Positions 8,890 to 21,548 of a stretch of DNA of 64,000 nt are shown piece after piece. Position 1 is the first letter of the stretch. Each line of letters begins with the position of its first letter. The notes under the pieces are model-generated. The model was not told the origin of the DNA. It saw only the letters and a list, made by a program, of their open reading frames with translations, and made no database searches. Source of the DNA: Collinsella sp. (GTDB taxonomy: Bacteria; Actinomycetota; Coriobacteriia; Coriobacteriales; Coriobacteriaceae); assembly GCA_029264355.1 (NCBI GenBank), contig JARIBW010000028.1, forward strand, positions 62,001-126,000, in the 5' to 3' direction. The position numbers and the translations under genes were made by a program.

Positions 8890-9545
8890 CGGACGATCCT
8901 CACCTTCCGGTCGATTCGATTGCCCACGAACGCGATGACCACCGCGGTGAGCGCGTAGCCGGCGGCCGAGACGGCAAAGGCCAGGATGCCGCCGGTCGCA
9001 CGCGTGTTGATATAGGAAACCACGCCGGTGAGCTCAAGGGGGTCGAGCGGGACCTGCGAGCCGATCGAGGTGGTGAGCAGCACGGCGATGAGCAGGTTCG
9101 TCATGGGCAGCACCGTGGTGCGGAGGGCCTGCGGGATCACGATCCGACGGAGCATCTGCCCAAACGAAAGGCCCAGCGACCGCGCGGCCTCGATCTGACC
9201 CACACCGATGGTGTTGATGCCGGTCATGAAGTTCTCGGAGCCGAAGGCGGAGGCCACGAGCACCACCGTGAGGATCACGCACGTGCGATACGGCAGCACC
9301 AGTTTCAAGCTCGGCAGCGCGTATACGATGATGATCAGCAGCGCGACGCCCGGGATATTGCGGAACACCTGAACGTAGCCGTCACCCAGCAGGCGCAACG
9401 GCTTGAATGGAGACACGCGCATCACGGTCACGACGACGGCGAGCGCCATCACGAGCACAAAGCAAAATGCCGTCATCCCCCAGGTGGACAGCAGCGCCTC
9501 CCAATAATTACGCCCATAGGTCGCCATCAGCTCCGACAGCCCCAT
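8886..9545 (-). CDS. Polar amino-acid ABC transporter, permease
   Basis: Second permease of the importer, 219 residues, with about five membrane helices and the ATPase-docking loop in GINTIGVGQIEAARSLGLSF. I choose the ATG at 9543-9545 because AAGGGG lies five bases upstream; an in-frame GTG two codons earlier would be too close to that SD. It overlaps the next permease gene by four bases. Upstream, 163 bases that contain a hairpin separate it from the binding-protein gene. Confidence 0.92.
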   Translation of the reverse strand: MGLSELMATYGRNYWEALLSTWGMTAFCFVLVMALAVVVTVMRVSPFKPLRLLGDGYVQVFRNIPGVALLIIIVYALPSLKLVLPYRTCVILTVVLVASAFGSENFMTGINTIGVGQIEAARSLGLSFGQMLRRIVIPQALRTTVLPMTNLLIAVLLTTSIGSQVPLDPLELTGVVSYINTRATGGILAFAVSAAGYALTAVVIAFVGNRIDRKVRIVR

Positions 9546-9605
9546 GAACACCCCTTCCCCATCTCCGGACTCATCAGTTGCAACGCCGCGAAGGCGCCGG
9601 CCCGC

Positions 9606-9626
9606 CCCTCACGCACCGCGTGAGGG
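9606..9626 (-). other. Hairpin between binding-protein and permease genes
   Basis: A perfect 9-bp stem (CCCTCACGC / GCGTGAGGG) with a 3-base loop lies in the 163-base gap. No T-tract follows it, so it looks like an mRNA-stabilising or partial-attenuation element that favours the binding protein over the permeases. Confidence 0.6.
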
Positions 9627-9708
9627 CAGGTACGGACGCCTCCGCACATCCTTGCAATCGGCACCGCCCGTCCATCGAGGCGAGCGGCGCCGTGCACATC
9701 TCGCGAAC

Positions 9709-10698
9709 CTACGCGCCGATCGCCGGAGGCTGCGGGGCCTCGTCGATCTCGGCGCGGTCGCCGATGCAGAGCTTCCACAGCTCCTCCCAAGTGCCATCCT
9801 CCTCGATCTGGGACAGGAAGGCGTTCACAAACGCGACGCCATCGGAGTCGAGCGGGAGGCCGATGCCGTACAGGTCCTCGGGGCCGAAGGGATCACCGGC
9901 CATCTTGTATTTACCGGGCTGCTTCATCATGTCGGAGAAGAGCATGTTGCGGTCGATGACATAGGCGTCCACGCGCCCCTGGGCCAGGGCGCTGCGCGCC
10001 TCCTCATCGGTCTTGAACTCCTGGAGCTTGGCGTCGGGGCAGACCTCCTCCATGATGCTCGGGCCGGTGGAACCGGACTGGGCGGCCACGCTCTTGCCCG
10101 CGAGATCGTCGACACCGGAGATATCGTCATTGTCGGCGAGCACGAGGATGGACTGCTGCGTGCCGTAGTAGGGACCGGCGAAGGAAATGAGCTTCTTGCG
10201 ATCCTCGGTGATGGAATATGTGGCGAACACGGCATCGACCTGGTTGTTTTGCAGGACGGATTCGCGCGTGTCGGACGTGACCTGCGTTGCCTCGAACTTG
10301 GACTCATCGCCCAAGATGTAGCGGACGAGCAGCTGGGACAGACCGGCGTCGAAACCGCGCAGCTTGCCATCCTTCTCGTTCAGCAGGCTGAAGAGCATGG
10401 AGGTCTGGACGACGCCGAGGCGCATCGTGCCCGCGTCCTTGATCTTTTGGGCCCACTCGCTGGAGGCGATGGCCGCGTCATCGGCGACGGCGCCGGAGGC
10501 GATCAGCTTGTCGTAGGCCACGGCATCGAGCAGTGCGGGCTCTTGGTCCTCGGCGGCATCCCCCGCAGAGGACCCGGCGGGCTCCGGGGCGGCCGGCTGC
10601 TCGCCACACGCGGCCAGGCCCAACGTGGCCGCGCCGGCGGCTGCGGCGCCAAGCACTTGACGACGGTCCAGCATGAACTCACGCGTGGTCTTGCTCAT
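9709..10698 (-). CDS. Amino-acid ABC transporter substrate-binding lipoprotein
   Basis: Extracellular binding protein of 329 residues. The N-terminus carries a twin-arginine stretch (LDRRQVLG), a hydrophobic Ala/Gly segment and the lipobox LAAC at about residues 28-31, followed by an Ala/Pro/Gly linker. This looks like a Tat-exported, lipid-anchored protein. The rest is a type-2 periplasmic-binding fold (SBP family 3), for example MRLGVVQTSMLFSLLN and DAVFATYSITEDRKKLISFAGPYY. It is the first gene of the importer operon. A GGAAAGGAA SD precedes the ATG, and a -10-like TATTAT (minus strand) lies at 10722-10727. The ligand is probably a polar amino acid. Confidence 0.92.
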   Translation of the reverse strand: MSKTTREFMLDRRQVLGAAAAGAATLGLAACGEQPAAPEPAGSSAGDAAEDQEPALLDAVAYDKLIASGAVADDAAIASSEWAQKIKDAGTMRLGVVQTSMLFSLLNEKDGKLRGFDAGLSQLLVRYILGDESKFEATQVTSDTRESVLQNNQVDAVFATYSITEDRKKLISFAGPYYGTQQSILVLADNDDISGVDDLAGKSVAAQSGSTGPSIMEEVCPDAKLQEFKTDEEARSALAQGRVDAYVIDRNMLFSDMMKQPGKYKMAGDPFGPEDLYGIGLPLDSDGVAFVNAFLSQIEEDGTWEELWKLCIGDRAEIDEAPQPPAIGA

Positions 10699-10721
10699 GA
10701 GGGTTCCTTTCCCTGTGCGCG

Positions 10722-10727
10722 ATAATA
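10722..10727 (-). promoter_or_regulatory. Probable -10 of the amino-acid ABC operon
   Basis: TATTAT on the minus strand, 24 bases upstream of the ATG of the binding-protein gene. No convincing -35 at 17 bp. Confidence 0.4.
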
Positions 10728-10873
10728 CCTTGTCTTACCGCAGTGTATGTTCAGTCAGCCCAGCGTACTCGTGGACTTACGCGTTCTTATGCCCCAACCG
10801 AGGCACTTGTATCACTTGCACGGCAACCACAGGCATGTAATCGATGGGATCGGGGGCGCGCCCCGATGCAGGG

Positions 10874-12670
10874 TCACGAAAGGGCGGTGCGGACGGCGTC
10901 GGCGATCGCCTCGAGGGTGATGCCGTTCTCGGCCAGGAGCTCGTCGACGTCGAAGCGGTCCGGGAAGCCCTTGCGCACGCCGCGGCACAGCACGCGCACG
11001 CCGGTCGGACCCAGATAGCGGGCGATCTTCTCGCCCCAACCGCCCTCGAGCACACCGTCCTCGAGTGTCACGATCACCCGGTGCGTGCGGGCGAGGGCGT
11101 CAAGCGCCGCCTCGTCGAGTTCGGTGGCGAAACGCGGGTTGACCAGGGTCGCATCGATCGCAAGGCCGCCGTCTGCGGGGGCGGCGAGCGCGGCGCGCAG
11201 GCTCTCGCCCAGGTCGAAGAAGCTGCCGAGCGCGAGGATCGCGACGTCGGAGCCCTCATGCACCACGTCGTAGCGCGGGGAGGAGAACTCGACCGGGGAC
11301 TCGCCCTCGGATGCGCGAGCGGGGTTCGAGACGACGCCGTTGCCGGGAACGCGAATGACCACGGGGCGCGAATCCTGGTCGATGGCCCAATCCAACATGG
11401 CGAGATACTCCTCGCGACACGTCGGTGCCAGACAGCGCAGGTTGGGCAGGGCCCCCTGCAGGGCGAGGTCGAAGAAACTCAGATGGGTCGCATCGCTCGT
11501 CCCATACACGGAGGAGCCGAAGTCGAGGATGACGGCCGGCAGGCTGTTCAGGCACAGATCGTGCCAGAGCTGGTCGTACGCGCGCTGCATGAACACGCCG
11601 TACAGGCCGAGCACCGGCTTGGCGCCCGCGCGCGCGAGGCCCGCGGCATAGGTCACGGCGTGTTCCTCGGCGATACCCACATCCACGAACTGGGAGCCCG
11701 CGGCATCGCGACGCGGCTTGGTGAAACCCATGATGTAGGGCGTGGCGGCGGAGATGCCCACCACGCGCTCATCGGCGGCCATGCGCATGAGCAGATGACG
11801 GCCGGTGATATCGGCGTAAGTCTCGCTCTTCTCGCAGCGGTTGCGACGGAGCGCCCCGTACGCACCGGACTCGATGTCGAAGGGACCGACGTGATGCCAA
11901 CCCTCGGCGTCATCCTCGGCGGGCCCGTAACCGGAGCCCTTGACGGTGCACAGGTGCAAGACGACCGGATGGTCGATGTCGCGGATCTCGAGCAGGGCCC
12001 GTTCGACGGCCGCCTCGTCGTTGCCATCGGCGAGGAAGCGGTAGTCGAGCCCGAGCGAGCGGAAGAAGTTGTTGGGGGCGGCGCCCCCACTCTCACGCAG
12101 CTCGGCGAGGTTGCGATAGATGCCGCCGTGATTCTCGGCGATGGACCAGCCGTTGTCGTTCACGATGACGATGACGCCGGTGCCGAGCTCGGCCAGGTTG
12201 TCGAACCCCTCGAATGCAAGGCCGCCCGAGATCGATCCGTCGCCGATGACGGCGACGACGTTGTAATCGGCGCCCATGAGGTCACGCGCCTTGGCCATAC
12301 CGCAGGCCAGGCTCACGGAAGTGGAGGTGTGACCGACGGAGAACAGATCGTGCTCGGACTCGGCCGGGCTGGTGAAGCCGGACAGGACGCCGAAGCGATC
12401 GGCGTCGAGATAGTTGGCGGCGCGGCCCGTGAGCATCTTGTGGGCGTACGTCTGATGGGAAACGTCGAAGATGAGCTTGTCCGTCGGCGAATCGAACACA
12501 CGGTGCAAGGCGACGGTGAGTTCCACGACGCCGAGGTTCGAACCGATGTGACCCCCCACCGAAGCAGAGCTCGAAAGGATGGCCCGGCGGATCTCGGAGC
12601 AAAGGAGCGGCAAGTCGGCGGCATCGAGGTCCCTCACGTCCTGCGGAGATGAAATGCGTTCCAGCAGCAT
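10874..12670 (-). CDS. dxs: Short-clade 1-deoxy-D-xylulose-5-phosphate synthase-like enzyme
   Basis: Thiamine-diphosphate enzyme of 598 residues, slightly shorter than typical DXS. Canonical DXS condenses pyruvate and glyceraldehyde 3-phosphate to DXP, the precursor of isoprenoids, thiamine and pyridoxal. Visible are GGHIGSNLGVVELTVALH with the catalytic-type His, DVSHQTYAHKMLTGR, the ThDP motif GDGSISGG followed by VNDNGWSIAENHGG, the catalytic-type Glu in VDVGIAEEHAV, and FMQRAYDQLWHD. The canonical loop near GADGQTHQG reads SVYGTSDATHLS, and the signature DVGHQ reads DVSHQ. It therefore belongs to a divergent DXS-like group also known from lactobacilli-type Firmicutes, and the reaction is less certain than for housekeeping DXS. 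GGGAGG lies about 12 bases before the ATG, an unusually long spacing. Confidence 0.75.
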   Translation of the reverse strand: MLLERISSPQDVRDLDAADLPLLCSEIRRAILSSSASVGGHIGSNLGVVELTVALHRVFDSPTDKLIFDVSHQTYAHKMLTGRAANYLDADRFGVLSGFTSPAESEHDLFSVGHTSTSVSLACGMAKARDLMGADYNVVAVIGDGSISGGLAFEGFDNLAELGTGVIVIVNDNGWSIAENHGGIYRNLAELRESGGAAPNNFFRSLGLDYRFLADGNDEAAVERALLEIRDIDHPVVLHLCTVKGSGYGPAEDDAEGWHHVGPFDIESGAYGALRRNRCEKSETYADITGRHLLMRMAADERVVGISAATPYIMGFTKPRRDAAGSQFVDVGIAEEHAVTYAAGLARAGAKPVLGLYGVFMQRAYDQLWHDLCLNSLPAVILDFGSSVYGTSDATHLSFFDLALQGALPNLRCLAPTCREEYLAMLDWAIDQDSRPVVIRVPGNGVVSNPARASEGESPVEFSSPRYDVVHEGSDVAILALGSFFDLGESLRAALAAPADGGLAIDATLVNPRFATELDEAALDALARTHRVIVTLEDGVLEGGWGEKIARYLGPTGVRVLCRGVRKGFPDRFDVDELLAENGITLEAIADAVRTALS

Positions 12671-12829
12671 GCGTGCGACGAACCTCCCGTGATGCGGATG
12701 ACGGACAATGTATTACGTAGAGTACCAGTTTCGCATACTCCGATGATGGAGATGAGGCATATCCGCCAAACGGCAATAGGTCTCGAGCGCATCGGCGCCC
12801 ATCGAGGGGCTCGTGCGCCCAAAGCCGCC

Positions 12830-14266
12830 CTATCGCCGAAGGCGCTTACGGGCGATCATGCGGCCCATCGCCAATGTGAAGCCCACGAGCACAAGTGCGG
12901 CGGTGACGACGTAGACGGTGTGGTACCCGTACAGGAAGATATCGGGCCTTCCCTCGACGAAAGCCGTGACATGACGGCCGGCGGCGGCGCTCATCCGGCC
13001 ATAGAGAATCGAAGTGGAGCCCGAAATGCCGACCGCCATGCCCAGGTATCGGGCGAGCGCGCTCACGCTGCCCGCGAATCCGAGCATCTCGGTGGAGACG
13101 GATCCCATGATCAGCGAGTTGTTCGGGGACTGGAAGATCGACGTGCCGAACGAGGCCAGGCCCAGATAGAACAGGATCTGAGGCAACGGGGCCGTCATCC
13201 CGAGCGTGCCCGTGAGATACAGCCCCACGCTGAAGGCCCCCAAACCGAGGACCGTGAGAAGGCCGCATCCGATGCGGTCGGACACGGCCCCGGATATGGG
13301 CCCTGCGACCGCGTTCACCAGGGGGATGATGCAAAAGATCAAACCGGAGACGCCGGGGTCGAAGCCGCGGGCGTCCTGCAGGTAGAACGGCGTCATGAGC
13401 TCATATACGCCGATGGCGACGAAGCTGATGAACAGGCAGATCACGTTCACCGTGAAATGCCGGTCCGCGAAGATCGCCAAATTGACCAGGGGATGCTCGA
13501 CGCGACGCTCATGCAGACCGAAGCATACGAGCATGAGCGCGCCCGCGACGAGCGCGAAGGCGGCGGCGGGGCTCGCGTTGCCCTGCATCATGGTGACGGA
13601 CAGGAACGTGAGCAACATGCCGGGAACGAGCAGGACGGCACCGGCGACGTCCATGGACTGCCCCGCGCATTCGGGCGTCGAGTGCGGCAAGGTGAAGTGC
13701 CCTATGACGAGGGACAGGATACCGACCGGCACGTTGATGAGGAAAATGCCCTCCCAGGGGAACATCGACACGATGAATCCGCCCAGCACCGGCCCGCACA
13801 GCATGCCGAGCGCCACGAAGCTCGCCAACAGGCCGAGCGCGCGGCCGCGCTCGCGGGCGGGGAAGGCCTCGGTGATGATGCCCATGTTGTTGGCCATGGC
13901 CGCCGCGCCGCCGATGCCCTGGACCGCGCGAGACGCCACGAGCGCCGGCAGCGAAGTGGACATGCCGCACATGAGAGAGCCGATGGAAAAGGTCACCACG
14001 CCGATCTCGAAATACCGGACCTTGCCATACAGGTCGCCCAACCTGCCGAACACGAGCAAGAAGGCGCACATGGTGAGCAGGTACACCGACGAGATCCACT
14101 GGATTTGGTCGAGCCCCGCCCCCAGTGCCTTTTGCATGACCGGCAGCGCGACATTGACGATGCTCGAATCAAGCGTCGCCATGAACGTCATGATGAGAAC
14201 GGTGAACAGGATCGCCCACTTATTCGAGGGCCCGGCTGACGCGGCCCCAGATCGCACATGTCCCAT
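12830..14266 (-). CDS. MFS multidrug exporter, DHA2 (14-TM) family
   Basis: Inner-membrane drug/H+ antiporter-like protein of 478 residues. The N-terminal motif TLDSSIVNVALPVMQ is typical of DHA2 exporters. It is followed by motif A-like LVFGRLGDLYGKVR, RAVQGIGGAAAMANNM (motif B region) and GPVLGGFI (motif C). About 14 hydrophobic segments can be counted. The ATG at 14264-14266 has GGAGG seven bases upstream, which decides the start; the frame is open 38 codons further without an SD. It lies downstream of, and on the same strand as, the Ogt-like gene, with 152 bases between. No regulator is adjacent. Confidence 0.88.
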   Translation of the reverse strand: MGHVRSGAASAGPSNKWAILFTVLIMTFMATLDSSIVNVALPVMQKALGAGLDQIQWISSVYLLTMCAFLLVFGRLGDLYGKVRYFEIGVVTFSIGSLMCGMSTSLPALVASRAVQGIGGAAAMANNMGIITEAFPARERGRALGLLASFVALGMLCGPVLGGFIVSMFPWEGIFLINVPVGILSLVIGHFTLPHSTPECAGQSMDVAGAVLLVPGMLLTFLSVTMMQGNASPAAAFALVAGALMLVCFGLHERRVEHPLVNLAIFADRHFTVNVICLFISFVAIGVYELMTPFYLQDARGFDPGVSGLIFCIIPLVNAVAGPISGAVSDRIGCGLLTVLGLGAFSVGLYLTGTLGMTAPLPQILFYLGLASFGTSIFQSPNNSLIMGSVSTEMLGFAGSVSALARYLGMAVGISGSTSILYGRMSAAAGRHVTAFVEGRPDIFLYGYHTVYVVTAALVLVGFTLAMGRMIARKRLRR

Positions 14267-14418
14267 GTGCCCACCTCCATAAAAATAGGGCCCCCACCTC
14301 ATAGCAGCTTGAGCTGGGAACCCGTCCGGTTCGTTGAATCGATTGTCCGAGCCTCTTTTGTACCATGAATCCCCCGGCACGTGCGGGGAACTTCACAGCA
14401 AAACCAAGGGGAGCTGGA

Positions 14419-15015
14419 TCAGCGGCCCCCTTCCAGCGCGCGCAGCGCGGTACAGACACGCCCGCAAGGATCGTCGGGCGCGAAAAGACCCTCGACGCGG
14501 TGCACGGGGACGATGACGCGGACCGGGCAGCGCGATGCGGCATCGCGAACGGCGCGGGCATCGGGTGCGCCCCCGATTCGGGACGCCACACTCGCCGCAA
14601 CATCATCCACCGTCACGACCTCGCCATACGGAACGCCGAGCAGCGCCACGCACACCGCATGCTCGAAGTCGTCTCCATCAAAGTCCATCGGGGGGACCCA
14701 GCGCGGGCTCTGGCCGGCGAAATAGGCCCTAAGCCACGCCCAGGAGCGCTCCAGCACGGCGACGGCGGATCCGTGAAGCGGGCTCGACGCGCACATGGGG
14801 CGGGCACCGGAGAGCGCGTCGCACCCTTCGATCTCCTCGTCCGCGCAGGCGGGATCGGAGTCGGCGGGCCGGCGGCCGTCCATGTCGAAGCGCGTGGAGT
14901 CGGCGCACGTCGAGGGGGCGCGGTCGAGCTCGCAAAACCACAGGCCGGCCAACCCGCGCGCGGTGGCGGCAAGCGATATGTCGCCCAGCGGCGAGTGATA
15001 TACGGTCGTGATCAT
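14419..15015 (-). CDS. Ogt/MGMT-fold alkyltransferase-like protein with PVHR instead of PCHR
   Basis: A 198-residue protein with the layout of methylated-DNA-protein-cysteine methyltransferases: an N-terminal half starting MITTVYHSPLGDISLAATARGLAGL, the DNA-binding helix-turn-helix region PYGEVVTVDDVAASVASRIGG, and DARAVRDAASRCPVRVIVPVHRVEG. The active-site motif PCHRV is PVHRV: the codon is GTG, checked directly on the minus strand. The downstream GYxGG loop is also missing. It therefore cannot act as a suicide Cys methyltransferase. It may be an alkyltransferase-like (ATL) protein that binds alkylated guanine and recruits repair, or it may be decaying. The SD GAGAGGGG lies seven bases before the ATG. 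Confidence 0.78.
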   Translation of the reverse strand: MITTVYHSPLGDISLAATARGLAGLWFCELDRAPSTCADSTRFDMDGRRPADSDPACADEEIEGCDALSGARPMCASSPLHGSAVAVLERSWAWLRAYFAGQSPRWVPPMDFDGDDFEHAVCVALLGVPYGEVVTVDDVAASVASRIGGAPDARAVRDAASRCPVRVIVPVHRVEGLFAPDDPCGRVCTALRALEGGR

Positions 15016-15080
15016 GCAGGGGCCCCTCTCATTCCCCGCACATTGTACCGCGGCGCCCGTCACGGGCGGGCGGCCTTGCC

Positions 15081-18000
15081 CTACTCCGCGCTCTTGAGGG
15101 CGCCAACCATGTCGATGCGGTCGAGGCTGCGGTTGGTCATCCGGTTGATGATGAGCGTGAAGACGAACGACATCACCGAGGCGAGCAGATATGTTTGCGG
15201 CTCCACGATCGTGTCGAAGAACAGCGATGGCATGCGCAGCACGTATGTGAGGAACCTCGTGATCAGGTAGCCGAGCGGCCAGCCCACCACGATGCCGATG
15301 AGCGTGAGGACGATCGTCTCCTTGTTGATATAGCGATGCACCTCGCCGCGCCGGAAGCCCAGCACCTTGATCGTGGCGAGCTCCCGCTCGCGTTCGGAGA
15401 TATTCGTGTTGGACAGCGTGAACACCACGGCGAAGGCCAGCGCGGCGGCCATCACGGTCACGATGTAGACCACGACGTCGATGATCTTGAAGCTCTCGGA
15501 GAAATCGTTGGCGACCTTCGTCGAGCTGTTCACGCTCACGAACGTGTCGCCCGCCATCAGCTGATCGGCCAGCTCGATCTTCTGCTCGTCCGTGCCCGTG
15601 AGGTTGGCCAGCAGCGCATTCGGGACGCACGGCTCGCCGAAGGCCTCGGCATAGGCGCTCTCGGTCATGAATACGAAGTTGCCCAGGAAGCTCACCGTGA
15701 TGCCGTCCACGCGCACCGGAGCCTGGTTCAACGTCGAGTCCTGCACAAGGAGCTCATCGCCGAGCGAGAAGCCAAGCACCTGCTCGGCGTTCTTAGTCAC
15801 GAGCGCGCCGTTGCCGTCGCGCGGCAGCGAAAGCTCCTCTCCGCCAACCGCGGGGGCGAGGAAGGTCGTGTGCGAGCCGTCCTCCGTCTTCATGTACGCG
15901 GACAGGTCGGCGTTGTCGGGGACCACGACGAGCTGGACGCTCTCCCGCACTCCCCCAAATTCAGCGGTCACGCTATCGACGCGCGCCTCGAGCATGCTGT
16001 CGACCGCGCCGGTCTCGCGCAGCTCGCGCTCCCCCCGCGCGAAATCCTCGTCGGCGGTGACGGCCAACAAGTCGTAGCGGACCACGCCGTCGCCGCCGTA
16101 CTGGCGCGGCTTGAGCGAAATCACCGTATCGCGAATGCCCAGGCCGCAGATCATGAGGGCGGTGCAGCCCGCGATGCCGAACACCGTCATGAAGAAGCGC
16201 TTCTTGTAGCGGAACAGATTGCGGGCGCTCACCTTGTTGAGGAACGACAGGCGCCGCCACAGCGGGGTGATGCGCTCCAGCAAGATGCGTTTGCCCACGC
16301 GCGGGGCTTTGGGGCGCATGAGTGAGGCGGGCGTCTCCTTGAGCACGTGGCGACAGGCCAGGAAAGTGGCCCCCACGATGCCGAGCGCGAACAAGACGAT
16401 GCCGAGCACCGCCGTGAACATGTTGAAGTGCAGCTGGAACGGGGGCAGCGCGTACATGGTCTTGAAGATGGTGAAGATGACGGCGGGGAGGGCGATGAAC
16501 CCGAGCGCGTCGCCGGCGATGCCGCCCGCCAGGCAGGCCGCAAATGAGTAGATGAGGTACTTGGACAAGATGCGGCCGCGGCTGTAACCCAGCGCCTTGT
16601 ACACGCCGATGAGGCCGCGATCCTCCTCGACCATACGCGTGACCGTGGTGAGGCTGATGAGCACGGCGACCGTGAAGAAGATGAGCGGGAACACGGTGGC
16701 GATGGACTCGATCGAGCTCGCATCGCTCTCGATGCTCGCATAGCTCGGCAGCGATCCGCGATCTTGGATGTACCACTTCGCACGCTCGATGCCGTCGACC
16801 TCGGCCCGGGCGTCGGCGAACCTCGCATTGACGTCGGCGCGATTGGCGTCGAGCTCGGCCCGACCGGCATCGAGCTCCGCCTGACCGGAGTCGGCCTCGC
16901 TCGCACCGGCGACGAGCCGGGCCTCGGCCTCGGCGATCTGGGTTTTCATCTGCTCGCGGGCGGCGTCGAGCTGGCCCAGGCCGCGCTCGGCGCGGGAGCG
17001 CTCGGCATCCAGGCGGCGCTGGCCCTCCGCGACCCGGTCGAGCCCCGCCTGGACCTCGCCCTTGCGCGCCACCCCCGCGGCAAGGGAGCGGATCTGCGCG
17101 CCGTCATCGGCGAGCATGGCATCGAGCGATGAGGCGGCGGAACCCAACATCTCCTCAATCGAGGAAAGCCTGGACACGGCCTGCTGGATCTGGCCCTCGT
17201 CCTCCGGGTACAGGCCCACGATGGCGCGCACGGCGTCGATGGCGTCGGCGTACCTGCCGCCGGTCAGCGCATCAAGACGATCGAGCATGCGCGCGACCTC
17301 GGCCTTGTCGGCCGGCGAAGCCGTGGGCAGGTCCGCAACGAGCCCTTTGATCTCGACCGTCAGGGCTTGCGCCCGCTCGAGCTCGGCGCGGGCCTCGCGC
17401 ACCAGCGGGACCACGGAGGAAACGAACGGATCGACGGCCGTCGCGTCGCCCTTTTGCAGGCGCTCCCACAAATCGGCGGGCCAACGATCGCCGAGCAGCG
17501 GCTTGATCACGTCGACCGCGGACTCCGCCTTGGCGATGGCGGCAAGCGCATCGGTGAGCTCCGCACGGGTCGAGTCGAGCTTGCCCTGTTCGCGCTCGAT
17601 GAGGGCCAGACCGGCGTCCAGCTCGGACTGGGCGGCATCGAGCTGACGGGCGGCGTCGGCGCGCTTGGCCTCGAGCTCGATCCTGCCCCCCTCGATCTGG
17701 GCGCGGGCGCGGTCGATCTTGTCCTGAGCGCTCACCAGCTCGCCGGCGGCCGCGTCCAGCGCCTCGTCGGCCTCGCCGCGGCGCTCGTCGATCTGCGCGA
17801 GGGCCTCGTCTTTCACATCGCTCGTCCGCTCGGCCTCTCGACGCTCGCGGATCCGCTCGACGCGGCCCTTGACCCCATCGATGAGCCCCTCATATTCACC
17901 CGAATAGGCCATGAGCTCGGAGGCACCGGCAACACGCAGGTAGGCGATGGTGAAGGTATCTCGATCCACCACGGCGGCGGGTGTGAGGAAGAACGCGTAC

Positions 18001-18656
18001 TGCGGACCGCCGGTGCTGCGGAAGCTCATGGTCTTGCTGCCGGCGTTCACGTCCATGGGGTCGAGCACGGATGCGGTGATGGTGTAGCGACCGCGCTCGA
18101 AGATCGCCGGCGAATCGTCGGGAACGGCGGTATCGGCGTCGGTATCGGCTTTGCCGTCGCGCTTCTCCCCGGCGCCCTCGAAGGTCACGGTGTCGCCGAT
18201 CTTCTTGCCGCTCGCATCCAGGTACTTACTCGTGACGGCGACCTCGTGCACGTCGCGGGGGAGCCGGCCTTCGACCACGCGGGGCTCGTTGAGACCGGCC
18301 GCGGAGAGCGCCTTGAGATCGACTTTCTCGCTCATGCCATTCACCTGGGTGTAAGCGGACTCGGTGTAGCCGCCCTCGGCCACATCGACCCCGTCCACCT
18401 CGGCGAGCGCGGAGATATCGGCTTCATCCAGCCCGAGCGTCGAACGGACCGAGATGTCGAACAGGCGCTGGGCGTCGTAGTAGTCGTCGGCCGTATGGCG
18501 CAGGTCGTCGCAAGCGGCCTTGAGGCCCACCAACATGGTGGCCCCGAGCGCCGTGATCACGAACAGCGAGATGAACCGCTTGAGGTTACCCGTGATGGTG
18601 CGCTTGATATCGCTCGCGAACGCGTTCGGCCGAACGCCGGCCTTCCTCCCCCTCAT
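15081..18656 (-). CDS. Giant FtsX-like ABC transporter permease with long extracytoplasmic coiled coil
   Basis: Membrane protein of 1191 residues. It has one N-terminal helix (about 27-47), an extracytoplasmic domain (about 50-255), and then about 390 residues (about 260-650) with strong Ala/Glu/Leu heptads and repeated LDAG/LDAA-type units, which I read as a long coiled coil. A first FtsX-like block follows (PLIFFTVAVLISLTTVTRMVEEDRGLIGVYKALGYSRG), then linker helices, a second extracytoplasmic domain, and a C-terminal FtsX block with TIKVLGFRRGEVHRYIN. It resembles large MacB/FtsX-type permeases of Gram-positives of unknown substrate. The cognate ATPase gene lies 12 bases upstream. The coiled coil suggests contact with a cell-wall or surface partner, which is an inference. 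Confidence 0.85.
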   Translation of the reverse strand: MRGRKAGVRPNAFASDIKRTITGNLKRFISLFVITALGATMLVGLKAACDDLRHTADDYYDAQRLFDISVRSTLGLDEADISALAEVDGVDVAEGGYTESAYTQVNGMSEKVDLKALSAAGLNEPRVVEGRLPRDVHEVAVTSKYLDASGKKIGDTVTFEGAGEKRDGKADTDADTAVPDDSPAIFERGRYTITASVLDPMDVNAGSKTMSFRSTGGPQYAFFLTPAAVVDRDTFTIAYLRVAGASELMAYSGEYEGLIDGVKGRVERIRERREAERTSDVKDEALAQIDERRGEADEALDAAAGELVSAQDKIDRARAQIEGGRIELEAKRADAARQLDAAQSELDAGLALIEREQGKLDSTRAELTDALAAIAKAESAVDVIKPLLGDRWPADLWERLQKGDATAVDPFVSSVVPLVREARAELERAQALTVEIKGLVADLPTASPADKAEVARMLDRLDALTGGRYADAIDAVRAIVGLYPEDEGQIQQAVSRLSSIEEMLGSAASSLDAMLADDGAQIRSLAAGVARKGEVQAGLDRVAEGQRRLDAERSRAERGLGQLDAAREQMKTQIAEAEARLVAGASEADSGQAELDAGRAELDANRADVNARFADARAEVDGIERAKWYIQDRGSLPSYASIESDASSIESIATVFPLIFFTVAVLISLTTVTRMVEEDRGLIGVYKALGYSRGRILSKYLIYSFAACLAGGIAGDALGFIALPAVIFTIFKTMYALPPFQLHFNMFTAVLGIVLFALGIVGATFLACRHVLKETPASLMRPKAPRVGKRILLERITPLWRRLSFLNKVSARNLFRYKKRFFMTVFGIAGCTALMICGLGIRDTVISLKPRQYGGDGVVRYDLLAVTADEDFARGERELRETGAVDSMLEARVDSVTAEFGGVRESVQLVVVPDNADLSAYMKTEDGSHTTFLAPAVGGEELSLPRDGNGALVTKNAEQVLGFSLGDELLVQDSTLNQAPVRVDGITVSFLGNFVFMTESAYAEAFGEPCVPNALLANLTGTDEQKIELADQLMAGDTFVSVNSSTKVANDFSESFKIIDVVVYIVTVMAAALAFAVVFTLSNTNISERERELATIKVLGFRRGEVHRYINKETIVLTLIGIVVGWPLGYLITRFLTYVLRMPSLFFDTIVEPQTYLLASVMSFVFTLIINRMTNRSLDRIDMVGALKSAE

Positions 18657-18668
18657 GATGCGCCCCGC

Positions 18669-19370
18669 CTACCACTCGATATCGGCGATGGGCACGGGAT
18701 GCTCGTTGACCTGCATGTCCGTGACGCGGCCGCTCTTGAAGCGGATCAGGCGGTCGGCCATGGGGGCCAGGGCGGAATTGTGCGTGATGATGAGGACGGT
18801 GATGCCGTCGCGGCGGCAGGTGTCCTGCAGCAGCTGCAGCACCTGCTTGCCCGTTTGGTAGTCGAGCGCCCCGGTGGGCTCATCGCACAGCAGGAGCTTG
18901 GGGTTTTTCGCGATGGCGCGGGCGATGGAGACGCGTTGCTGCTCGCCGCCGGAAAGCTGCGCCGGGAAGTTCGCCATGCGCTCGCCCAAGCCGACCTTGC
19001 ACAGGCAGTCGGCCGCGTCGAGTGAATCGGGGCAGATCTGGGAGGCGAGCTCGACATTCTCGAGCGCGGTGAGGTTGGGGACGAGGTTGTAGAACTGGAA
19101 GACGAAGCCAACGTCCGCACGGCGATACTCCACGAGCTCCTCCTCGGAGGCGGAACTCACATCGCGCCCGTCGACGACGACGCGACCGCTCGTCGCGTTG
19201 TCCATGCCGCCCAAAATGTTGAGCGCCGTGGTCTTGCCGGCGCCCGATGCGCCCAAGATCACGGCAAGCTCCCCGCGCTCGACCTCGAAGCTCGCGCCAT
19301 CCAGCGCGCGCACTTCCGATCCGCCGGACCCGTACGTCCTCACAACGTCATCGAACTCGATATATGCCAT
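18669..19370 (-). CDS. ABC transporter ATP-binding protein (MacB/LolD type)
   Basis: ATPase of 233 residues with Walker [18 protein letters not shown], the family-typical [14 protein letters not shown], the Q-loop in [20 protein letters not shown], the signature [17 protein letters not shown] and Walker [13 protein letters not shown]. This subfamily pairs with FtsX-like permeases and drives extrusion or mechanotransmission rather than import. The stop is 12 bases before the giant permease gene, so the two form one unit. The degV gene lies upstream on the same strand, with 75 bases between. Confidence 0.93.
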
Positions 19371-19445
19371 GCGCGGGCCCCCGTTACCTCATCTGCTCCC
19401 GTTGGTATGTTCTACCCACAAGAGGGGGTGTCAGACAGTCGGGGT

Positions 19446-20306
19446 CTATGCCTCGGGCTTTTGGATGAGCACCGCGCCGAAGGCGGTGGGGCCGCAGTGG
19501 CAGGAGATCACGCCGCCGACCTTGGTCCAGGTGATTTCCCGGAAGCCCAATTCACGGGCGTACGCCTCCATCTCCGCACGGAGCTCCTCGGACAGACCGA
19601 CGGAATAGGCCAGGCCGATGTGGGAATAGTCGATGTCGCCTTTGTCGACCATGTGATCGATAAAGGCGTGCGCGCACTTGAGCATGGAGCCGCGGAACTT
19701 CTTGGTGGCGAGGAACTTGCCGCCGAGCACCTCGATGCAGGGCTTGATCTTGAGCAGGTGCGCGCCGAGGAACGCGACATTGGAAAGACGCCCTCCGGCC
19801 TTGAGGAAGCCGAGGTCGGTGGGGACGAAGCCGAGCAGGATGCGGTCTATCACGCTCTCGGTATGGGAGAAGATCTCCTCGACCGAGGCCTCGGGGTGGG
19901 CTTCGATGTACTTGGCGGTCTCAACGGCGGCGAGGCCCTGCCCCACGGAGGCGAAGCGCGTATCCATGGAGTGGACATAGCCGCGGCCCTGGGCGGCGAT
20001 CTTGGAGGACTGGTGCGAGCAGGTGGTCACCTCGGAGTACGCGAGATGGAGGATGGTCGCATCGGGCTGCTCGGCGTGAATGCGATCGAAGACCTTCTCA
20101 AAGTCGCCAGGGGTGCAGCCGCTCGTCTTGGGCATCTCGCCGAGCTCGTTGCAGCGCGAGTAGATCTCGAGCGGATCGATGGCGCCATCGTCCATCGTCT
20201 CGTCGCCGATCGTCACGTGCATCGGAACGACCACGATGCCGTAGCGCTCGCTCTGCTCCGGCGATACGTCCGCGCCGGACTCGACCACGATGACGTACTT
20301 ACCCAC
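19446..20306 (-). CDS. DegV-family fatty-acid-binding protein
   Basis: A 286-residue protein of the DegV/FakB fold. N-terminal VIVVESGADVSPE, MPKTSGCTPGDFEKVF and the C-terminal GPTAFGAV loop match the family, whose members bind a long-chain fatty acid and can present it to the kinase FakA for phosphorylation. No fakA is adjacent. The start is a GTG at 20304-20306 with no clear SD. A -10-like TACAAT on the minus strand lies at 20400-20405, about 95 bases upstream. It is followed by the ABC ATPase gene. Confidence 0.88.
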   Translation of the reverse strand: MGKYVIVVESGADVSPEQSERYGIVVVPMHVTIGDETMDDGAIDPLEIYSRCNELGEMPKTSGCTPGDFEKVFDRIHAEQPDATILHLAYSEVTTCSHQSSKIAAQGRGYVHSMDTRFASVGQGLAAVETAKYIEAHPEASVEEIFSHTESVIDRILLGFVPTDLGFLKAGGRLSNVAFLGAHLLKIKPCIEVLGGKFLATKKFRGSMLKCAHAFIDHMVDKGDIDYSHIGLAYSVGLSEELRAEMEAYARELGFREITWTKVGGVISCHCGPTAFGAVLIQKPEA

Positions 20307-20522
20307 AAGACCACGACCAATCTACTCGACATTGCATATGGCGAAGGCGCCGGGCGCATCCTTATCGCCGACGCCTTCCCCTTATGTGCGTGACACCAGA
20401 TTGTACACACTGGAGCTTGATGTGTAGGTTAATTACCGACCACCGGACGCGCATTTCCGACCAAACGACACAGGGCCGTCAAGACCCCGCACGACATCTG
20501 TATCGTTCGGCGACGCATGTCC

Positions 20523-21548
20523 CTATTCGCACAGGAGCTTGGCGATCTGGACGGCGTTGGTGGCAGCGCCCTTCCTGATCTGATCGCCGCAACACCAGAA
20601 GGTGATTCCGCGCAGGGCGTCGGGATTTGAAATATCGCGACGCACGCGGCCGACCCAGATCAGGTCTTGATCGGTGGTGTCCAGCGGCATGGGCCAGCGA
20701 TCGTGCGCGCTCTCGGCGTCGAGGTCGTCGACGAGCTTGACGCCGGGGGCGGACGAGAGCGCCGCGCGCACCTCGTCCAGCGTGATGTCGCGTTCGAATT
20801 CGAGCGTGATGCTCTCGGAGTGGGAGCGCAACACGGGGACGCGCACGCATGTGCAATTCACGCGAAGCCCGGGCAGGTGCATGATCTTGCGGCCCTCATC
20901 TTGCATCTTCATCTCCTCGGAGGTGAAGCCCTCGAACTTCTCTCCGCCGATCTGCGGGATGAGGTTGCTCGCCAACTGCGCCGCGAAGGCGGCCGGCGCC
21001 GGGATCTCCTCGCCGCGGCCCATGCAGCCGATCTGCTCCTCGAGCTCGCGCATGCCGGGCGCGCCGGCGCCCGAGGCCGCCTGGTAGGTGGATACGATCA
21101 TGCGCTTCACGCCGGCCAGCCGGTGCAGCGGCCAGGTTGGCACCAGGCCGATGATGGTGGCGCAGTTGGGATTGGCGATGATGCCCCTGTGGGACCGCGC
21201 GTCCGCCGCGTTTATCTCGGGGATGACGAGCGGGACGTCCTCGTCCAAACGGAAGGCATGTGAATTGTCGACCACCACGGCACCGCGTTTGACGGCCTCC
21301 GGGTACAGGGCCTTAGCCACATCGTCCTCGGCCGCCCCGAGCACGATGTCCACACCGTCGAACGCCTCGGGAGAGGCGGCCTCGACCGCGACCTCGCCCC
21401 ACGGGGTCGACACGACCCTGCCGGCCGAGCGCGGGCTCGCCAAAAGCTTGAGCGATGCCACCGGGAACCGCTGTTCCTCCAGACACGCGAGCATCTGCGT
21501 GCCGACGGCACCCGTGGCCCCCACGATGGCGACGACGTACTTCTTCAT
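20523..21548 (-). CDS. asd: Aspartate-semialdehyde dehydrogenase
   Basis: Reduces aspartyl phosphate to aspartate semialdehyde with NADPH, the branch point to lysine, threonine and methionine. The 341 residues match the family. The N-terminal NADP-binding motif is VAIVGATGAVGTQMLACLEE, the catalytic Cys lies in NPNCATI, and the substrate loop is STYQAASGAGAPGMRELEEQ. GGGGAAAG precedes the ATG. The gene follows lysC by 58 bases on the same strand, so the first two steps of the aspartate pathway are in one unit. Confidence 0.95.
   Translation of the reverse strand: MKKYVVAIVGATGAVGTQMLACLEEQRFPVASLKLLASPRSAGRVVSTPWGEVAVEAASPEAFDGVDIVLGAAEDDVAKALYPEAVKRGAVVVDNSHAFRLDEDVPLVIPEINAADARSHRGIIANPNCATIIGLVPTWPLHRLAGVKRMIVSTYQAASGAGAPGMRELEEQIGCMGRGEEIPAPAAFAAQLASNLIPQIGGEKFEGFTSEEMKMQDEGRKIMHLPGLRVNCTCVRVPVLRSHSESITLEFERDITLDEVRAALSSAPGVKLVDDLDAESAHDRWPMPLDTTDQDLIWVGRVRRDISNPDALRGITFWCCGDQIRKGAATNAVQIAKLLCE

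Follow-up and report, generated by a model that had tools for sequence, protein, structure and literature searches.

The members of the AGT family (Ogt/MGMT) are the textbook case of a one-shot repair protein, and to our knowledge the only well-known relatives of theirs in which the acceptor cysteine is missing are the short alkyltransferase-like proteins (ATLs). The locus described here, in a window of 64,000 nucleotides of Collinsella sp. (the whole stretch of DNA that was analysed), raises the question of what a full-length Ogt homologue without this cysteine could be: a gene in decay, an ATL in another guise, an enzyme whose chemistry has moved to another residue, or a protein that selection has kept for a task other than repair.

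An Ogt homologue that lacks its acceptor cysteine

The gene, the landmarks of its product (P0001) and its neighbours are the following.

14419..15015, (-) strand: Cys-less Ogt/MGMT homologue P0001, 198 aa, ATG start, TGA stop (open reading frame and translation)
14710..15015, (-) strand: N-terminal AGT domain, residues 1-102, PF02870 (Pfam)
14494..14670, (-) strand: C-terminal AGT DNA-binding domain, residues 116-174, PF01035 (Pfam)
14608..14610, (-) strand: Val136, replacing the base-flipping Tyr (hMGMT Tyr114) (alignments)
14533..14559, (-) strand: predicted recognition helix, residues 153-161 (alignment and AlphaFold2 model)
14554-14556, (-) strand: Arg finger Arg154 (hMGMT Arg128), kept (alignment)
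14527..14529, (-) strand: Cys163, replacing the Asn hinge (hMGMT Asn137) (alignments)
14503..14505, (-) strand: Val171, replacing the acceptor Cys (hMGMT Cys145), motif PVHRV (translation, alignment and pattern scan)
14467..14493, (-) strand: segment EGLFAPDDP, in-frame replacement of the substrate loop region (GADGxLxGYAGG in relatives) (alignments)
14431..14433, (-) strand: Glu195, conserved Glu of the catalytic network (hMGMT Glu172), kept (alignments)
15081..18656, (-) strand: FtsX-like ABC permease gene, upstream on the same strand after a 65-base gap, conserved synteny
12830..14266, (-) strand: MFS-type transporter gene, downstream, start unsettled, conserved synteny

The first-pass annotation had taken the gene for an Ogt homologue with the suicide cysteine replaced (PVHR), and this stands: the active-site motif of the translation reads IVP-V-HRV, and both AGT domains score above the Pfam curated cut-offs (Methyltransf_1N 29.7 bits, cut-off 21; DNA_binding_1 37.6 bits, cut-off 27), the protein lying below that of TIGR00589 (33.3 vs 46.4 bits). 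The loss of the GYxGG loop, also reported there, is equally real. The further statement that the landmarks of the fold are kept holds for the recognition helix with its Arg finger and for the final Glu, to which the alignments add His146 and Arg147 (hMGMT numbering), but not for Tyr114 and Asn137, which are lost as well; the conserved Gly after RAV is Arg in P0001.

The nearest solved relatives of P0001 are AGTs, the best of them being M. tuberculosis Ogt. An AlphaFold2 model made from 18 aligned sequences (pLDDT 72.7, with a low-confidence stretch at residues 31-57 in the N-terminal domain) aligns as a whole with human AGT 1yfh_B (Z 12.1, rmsd 3.6 Å, 148 residues); S. pombe Atl1 (3gva_A; Z 7.3, rmsd 3.1 Å, 80 residues) aligns with the C-terminal half. 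Judged by this model, P0001 is predicted to have the AGT fold. An Rfam scan of positions 9000-21000 of the window gave no match, nor did sigma-70 promoter and terminator patterns around the gene.

A loss shared by two species of Collinsella

A syntenic orthologue with 80-81% amino acid identity to P0001 is present in Collinsella intestinalis DSM 13280 (G017, L059), where it was located by an alignment-based contig scan, a single-protein contig scan having given no match. Orthology follows from synteny, as the gene order dxs-like/MFS/ogt/FtsX/ABC is common to both species. The orthologue reads PIHR (Ile at 145), with Val114, Cys137 and the GYxGG loop replaced in frame; its Arg finger is Cys, and so is the residue after RAV. 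Since this independently sequenced isolate has the same features and no indels, an assembly error behind the losses of P0001 is unlikely. A frameshift as the origin of the new C-terminus was also considered and discarded, the frame running in both species to the conserved LE. Cys145, Tyr114, Asn137 and GYxGG being absent from both species, they would most simply have been lost in the common ancestor of the two.

P0001 was matched in 39 of 45 Collinsella genomes, the other six being without any match, and the locus is orthologous to intact Collinsella Ogts. All the matching genes that were read carry PCHR, save those of the window species, of C. intestinalis and of one MAG (PGHR), so that within Collinsella the V/I version belongs to two species only; the next relatives, C. 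provencensis and C. stercoris, have an intact Ogt. It had been foreseen that relatives all carrying PCHR would point to a strain-specific lesion: PCHR is indeed what most Collinsella Ogts have, yet the loss is found in the nearest species as well, and P0001 is not such a lesion. In C. stercoris (L006, G039) the intact PCHR Ogt contains a low-complexity insertion of some 75 residues in the HTH region, before the recognition helix.

The MAG, S23M_St_26 (L030/L080), is Collinsella-like; its gene keeps the Tyr, reads RYAGG at the loop and has Asp in place of the Arg finger. In the best tree it groups with the window species and C. intestinalis (support 73), and one single loss of the Cys within Collinsella is possible; the PGHR gene may represent another stage, or an independent loss at this locus.

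As to a second, intact ogt in the genome, whose presence had been proposed as a check, an AGT-family gene with PCHR does exist (L001, G000:C30:27254-27499), but of the short type, with the C-domain only. Similar matches are found in nearly all Collinsella genomes, and the product looks like an ATL-sized protein in which the Cys has been retained.

Selection on the gene

A first explanation would be that of a decaying pseudogene, which has lost its function and drifts, its reading frame having stayed open by accident, as can happen in GC-rich DNA. In favour of this are the absence of several family landmarks, the presence of another AGT-family gene with PCHR in the genome, the six Collinsella genomes without any match, and a dN of 0.118 (window species against C. 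intestinalis), two to four times as high as in the neighbouring genes (0.027-0.059). However, over the 198 codons dS is 0.579 and dN/dS 0.203 (bootstrap 0.127-0.316; Nei-Gojobori, a value for one species pair and not a branch model), a ratio within the range of intact Collinsella Ogt pairs (0.09-0.24), the neighbouring genes having 0.05-0.15; residues 81-160 are at 0.086-0.093. The differences are distributed 28/17/65 by codon position, and no gap, indel or stop has arisen in the course of some 0.58 synonymous changes per site. Neutral evolution was simulated 2,000 times with the fourfold-site spectrum taken from neighbouring genes: the median dN/dS was 1.13, the lowest value 0.57, and a stop appeared in 45%. 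The reading of the short C-terminus as a possible sign of decay is contradicted by the dN/dS of the gene. Nor is the C-terminus badly truncated: from HRV to the conserved Glu, which is kept, there are 21 residues, only three fewer than the 24 of C. provencensis.

Because both species lack the Cys and have the same derived sites, the changes counted here most simply postdate the loss of the Cys, and the gene has been under purifying selection since the two species split. A ratio of 0.20, where the neutral simulations never fell below 0.57, therefore speaks for a constrained pseudoenzyme and not for decay, which we regard as unlikely, the more so as the Cys-less pattern is met again in a second family and lasts there.

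Cys-less Ogts in a second family

When the DNA pattern (I/V)(I/V)PVHRV was scanned over 299 genomes of the order Coriobacteriales, three AGT genes were obtained, that of the window and two in another family (f2), which we infer to be the Eggerthellaceae; the pattern PVHR gave 17 matches in the order, three of them in AGT frames (the window, L092 and L097). Outside the order, those of the listed AGT matches in 246 Actinomycetota genomes that were checked by eye are PCHR. Matches to NPGLxxLPVHR in other Actinomycetota were set aside as not being AGTs; they lie in proteins of about 450 aa with ADGHHRYQT, presumably DUF1015.

A search in f2 with P0002, one of the homologues of that family, found a match in 115 of 119 genomes, and loci were fetched and aligned. 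The alignment has 127 rows in all, with 100 non-redundant rows in the clade of P0002. The acceptor Cys is missing in 63 of these 100, and in 66 of the 127. Over all rows the site holds C in 61, D in 16, A in 15, T in 14, V in 7, S in 6, I in 3, G in 2, L in 2 and E in 1; Val, which had been proposed as a new variant, is only one of the many residues that relatives have there. The other losses accompany that of the Cys: Tyr114 is missing in 63 of the 66 Cys-less rows and the GY loop in all 66 by the alignment rule (the PGHR MAG has RYAGG nonetheless), while the Cys-containing rows have the Tyr in 57 and the loop in 55 of 61. What the Cys-less rows keep is His146 (65/66), Glu172 (66/66) and Arg128 (62/66).

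By motif scan, most genes of the f2 Cys-less locus adjoin the ribulose-phosphate 3-epimerase gene (rpe), mainly on the opposite strand, and several f2 genomes possess a second, intact Ogt (L210-L219). The closest Cys-less pairs have dN/dS values mostly of 0.05-0.35. On the tree at least six changes of the Cys label are needed, four of them forced by starred branches, and the Collinsella case is set apart from those of f2, within which a single loss is not rejected (AU p 0.13). A literature search on Eggerthella and O6-methylguanine repair found no paper bearing on Cys-less Ogts.

The f2 homologues, among them P0002 and P0003, thus resemble P0001 in being full length and without the Cys, the Tyr and the GY loop, some of them having the very same pair of Cys137 and Val145; they differ from it in their locus, in their separate origin on the tree, and in an Arg finger and RxVG motif better kept than in the branch of P0001. 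Taken together, the Cys-less Ogts give the impression of a branch of the AGT family that has been retained without being enzymatic, and not of broken genes.

Some particular cases deserve mention. The Cys-less majority at the mostly rpe-linked locus (L092, L097, L103-L209) includes a PDHR(V/I) group that extends across several genera. Two genes inside the Cys-less clade (L113 and L124, in G191 and G367) still read PCHR despite having lost Tyr114 and the GY loop, and their Cys may be a late survivor or one that was regained. One Ogt (L109, G082) has both Cys137 and Cys145 (RCPFSLVVPCHRV), with most other landmarks present.

Comparison with the alkyltransferase-like proteins

With the Ogt/AGT proteins (TIGR00589, PF01035 + PF02870) P0001 shares the two-domain fold, the HTH, the Arg finger, PxHRV and the terminal Glu; it differs in having neither acceptor Cys, Tyr114, Asn hinge nor GYxGG, and in its score below the TIGR00589 cut-off. 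With the ATLs (E. coli Atl/YbaZ, S. pombe Atl1) it shares the AGT C-domain, the replacement of the Cys and, presumably, the absence of catalysis. In the ATLs the base-flipping Tyr and the Arg finger are conserved, there is no N-terminal domain, and the residue at the site is in most cases Trp (PMC10779285), whereas P0001 is full length, has lost the Tyr, and has Val (Ile in C. intestinalis) and not Trp; by definition, then, the Cys-less Ogts of Collinsella and f2 are not ATLs.

A role like that of the ATLs, which the first-pass annotation had put forward, would consist in P0001 binding O6-alkylguanine without repairing it and handing the lesion over to nucleotide excision repair. The replaced Cys, the retention of His146, Arg147 and Glu172, the Arg finger of P0001, and the alignment of its C-terminal model half with Atl1 would all suit such a role. 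It is nevertheless improbable, since the ATLs keep the Tyr, which is lost in P0001 and in nearly all Cys-less rows, and have only the C-domain (PMC10779285); the GYxGG substrate loop is also gone, and C. intestinalis is without the Arg finger.

Residues 137 and 145

Val, Ile or Leu at 145 is found in 9 of the 15 Cys-less rows that have Cys137, as against 3 of the 51 that do not (Fisher p 2e-5, kinship ignored), and the rows that keep Asn137 have D, A, S, T, G or E at the site. Phylogeny-corrected tests of this pairing and of that between Cys and Tyr contained 3 and 4 independent pairs on supported branches of the tree, too few for significance, nearly all the informative pairs being in the expected direction.

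In MGMT, a clash between an S-alkyl-Cys and Asn137 makes the protein less stable (PMC10814553); the Cys-to-Leu mutant of human AGT is extremely unstable, and SsOGT C119L, made as a mimic of a bulky adduct, could be crystallised (PMC4605297). The pairing is what would be expected if a bulky residue at 145 were to clash with Asn137, and in the light of the MGMT clash and the mutants, Cys137 can therefore be read as making room for it. By analogy, we infer that the Val form would be a stabilised analogue of the alkylated state. The laboratory Cys mutants (SsOGT C119L/C119F/C119A; hMGMT C145A) likewise carry a substitute, bulky or small, for the acceptor Cys; in contrast to these, P0001 is natural and conserved, and N137C together with the loop changes could accommodate the bulky residue.

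The same Cys137 admits another explanation, namely that the chemistry has been relocated and that the Cys at the Asn137 position (Cys163) is now the alkyl acceptor. Cys137 is found in 15 Cys145-less rows, for which 10 changes are needed on the tree, and as Asn to Cys takes two base changes, this recurrence suggests selection. However, most proteins without Cys145 have either Asn137 still or Ser in its place, and the role that is retained can thus do without Cys137; Tyr114 and the substrate loop are lost too, and the pairing is explained by simple repacking around a bulky residue at 145. We consider this explanation very improbable.

A probable role without alkyl transfer

The reading that we prefer, and hold to be reasonably probable, is that P0001 is a constrained pseudoenzyme, not an alkyltransferase, with a role in binding DNA or a partner. 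The steps would be: (i) that P0001 folds as an AGT at full length, without alkyl transfer to the usual cysteine; (ii) that selection would keep it for a non-catalytic job; (iii) that the hydrophobic residue at 145 and Cys137 would repack the core of the active site and hinge into a stable protein similar to the post-alkylation state; (iv) and finally, with less assurance, that it may act through contacts with DNA or partners, as a regulator or sensor and not as a repair enzyme. Some observations tell against this reading. In C. intestinalis Cys stands at the Arg finger, and the Gly after RAV has been replaced by Arg or Cys, so that DNA binding may itself have been weakened in the branch of the window species and C. 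intestinalis; the dN is raised relative to the neighbouring genes, and within Collinsella the V/I version is confined to two species.

The narrower proposal, that P0001 is a signalling protein of post-alkylation type, is put forward only tentatively. Its extension to the Coriobacteriia is speculative to the same degree: at two loci, independently, an Ogt would have become a maintained, full-length Cys-less protein, and a subset with Cys137 and Val, Ile, Leu or Thr at 145 would have been locked as a stable mimic of the post-repair state, a constitutive signal bound to DNA or a partner.

In summary, this full-length, recurrent and selectively maintained Cys-less Ogt is best regarded as a variant that is new to the AGT family. 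P0002 and P0003 score above the TIGR00589 cut-off without having the acceptor Cys and would therefore be named methyltransferases by that model, so that the capacity for alkylation repair can be overcounted in genomes with genes of this kind, a warning to annotators. If true, a recurrent and selectively maintained full-length group without the Cys and the Tyr in gut bacteria would mean that the AGT fold is useful for something other than alkyl transfer, and probably other than base flipping as well.
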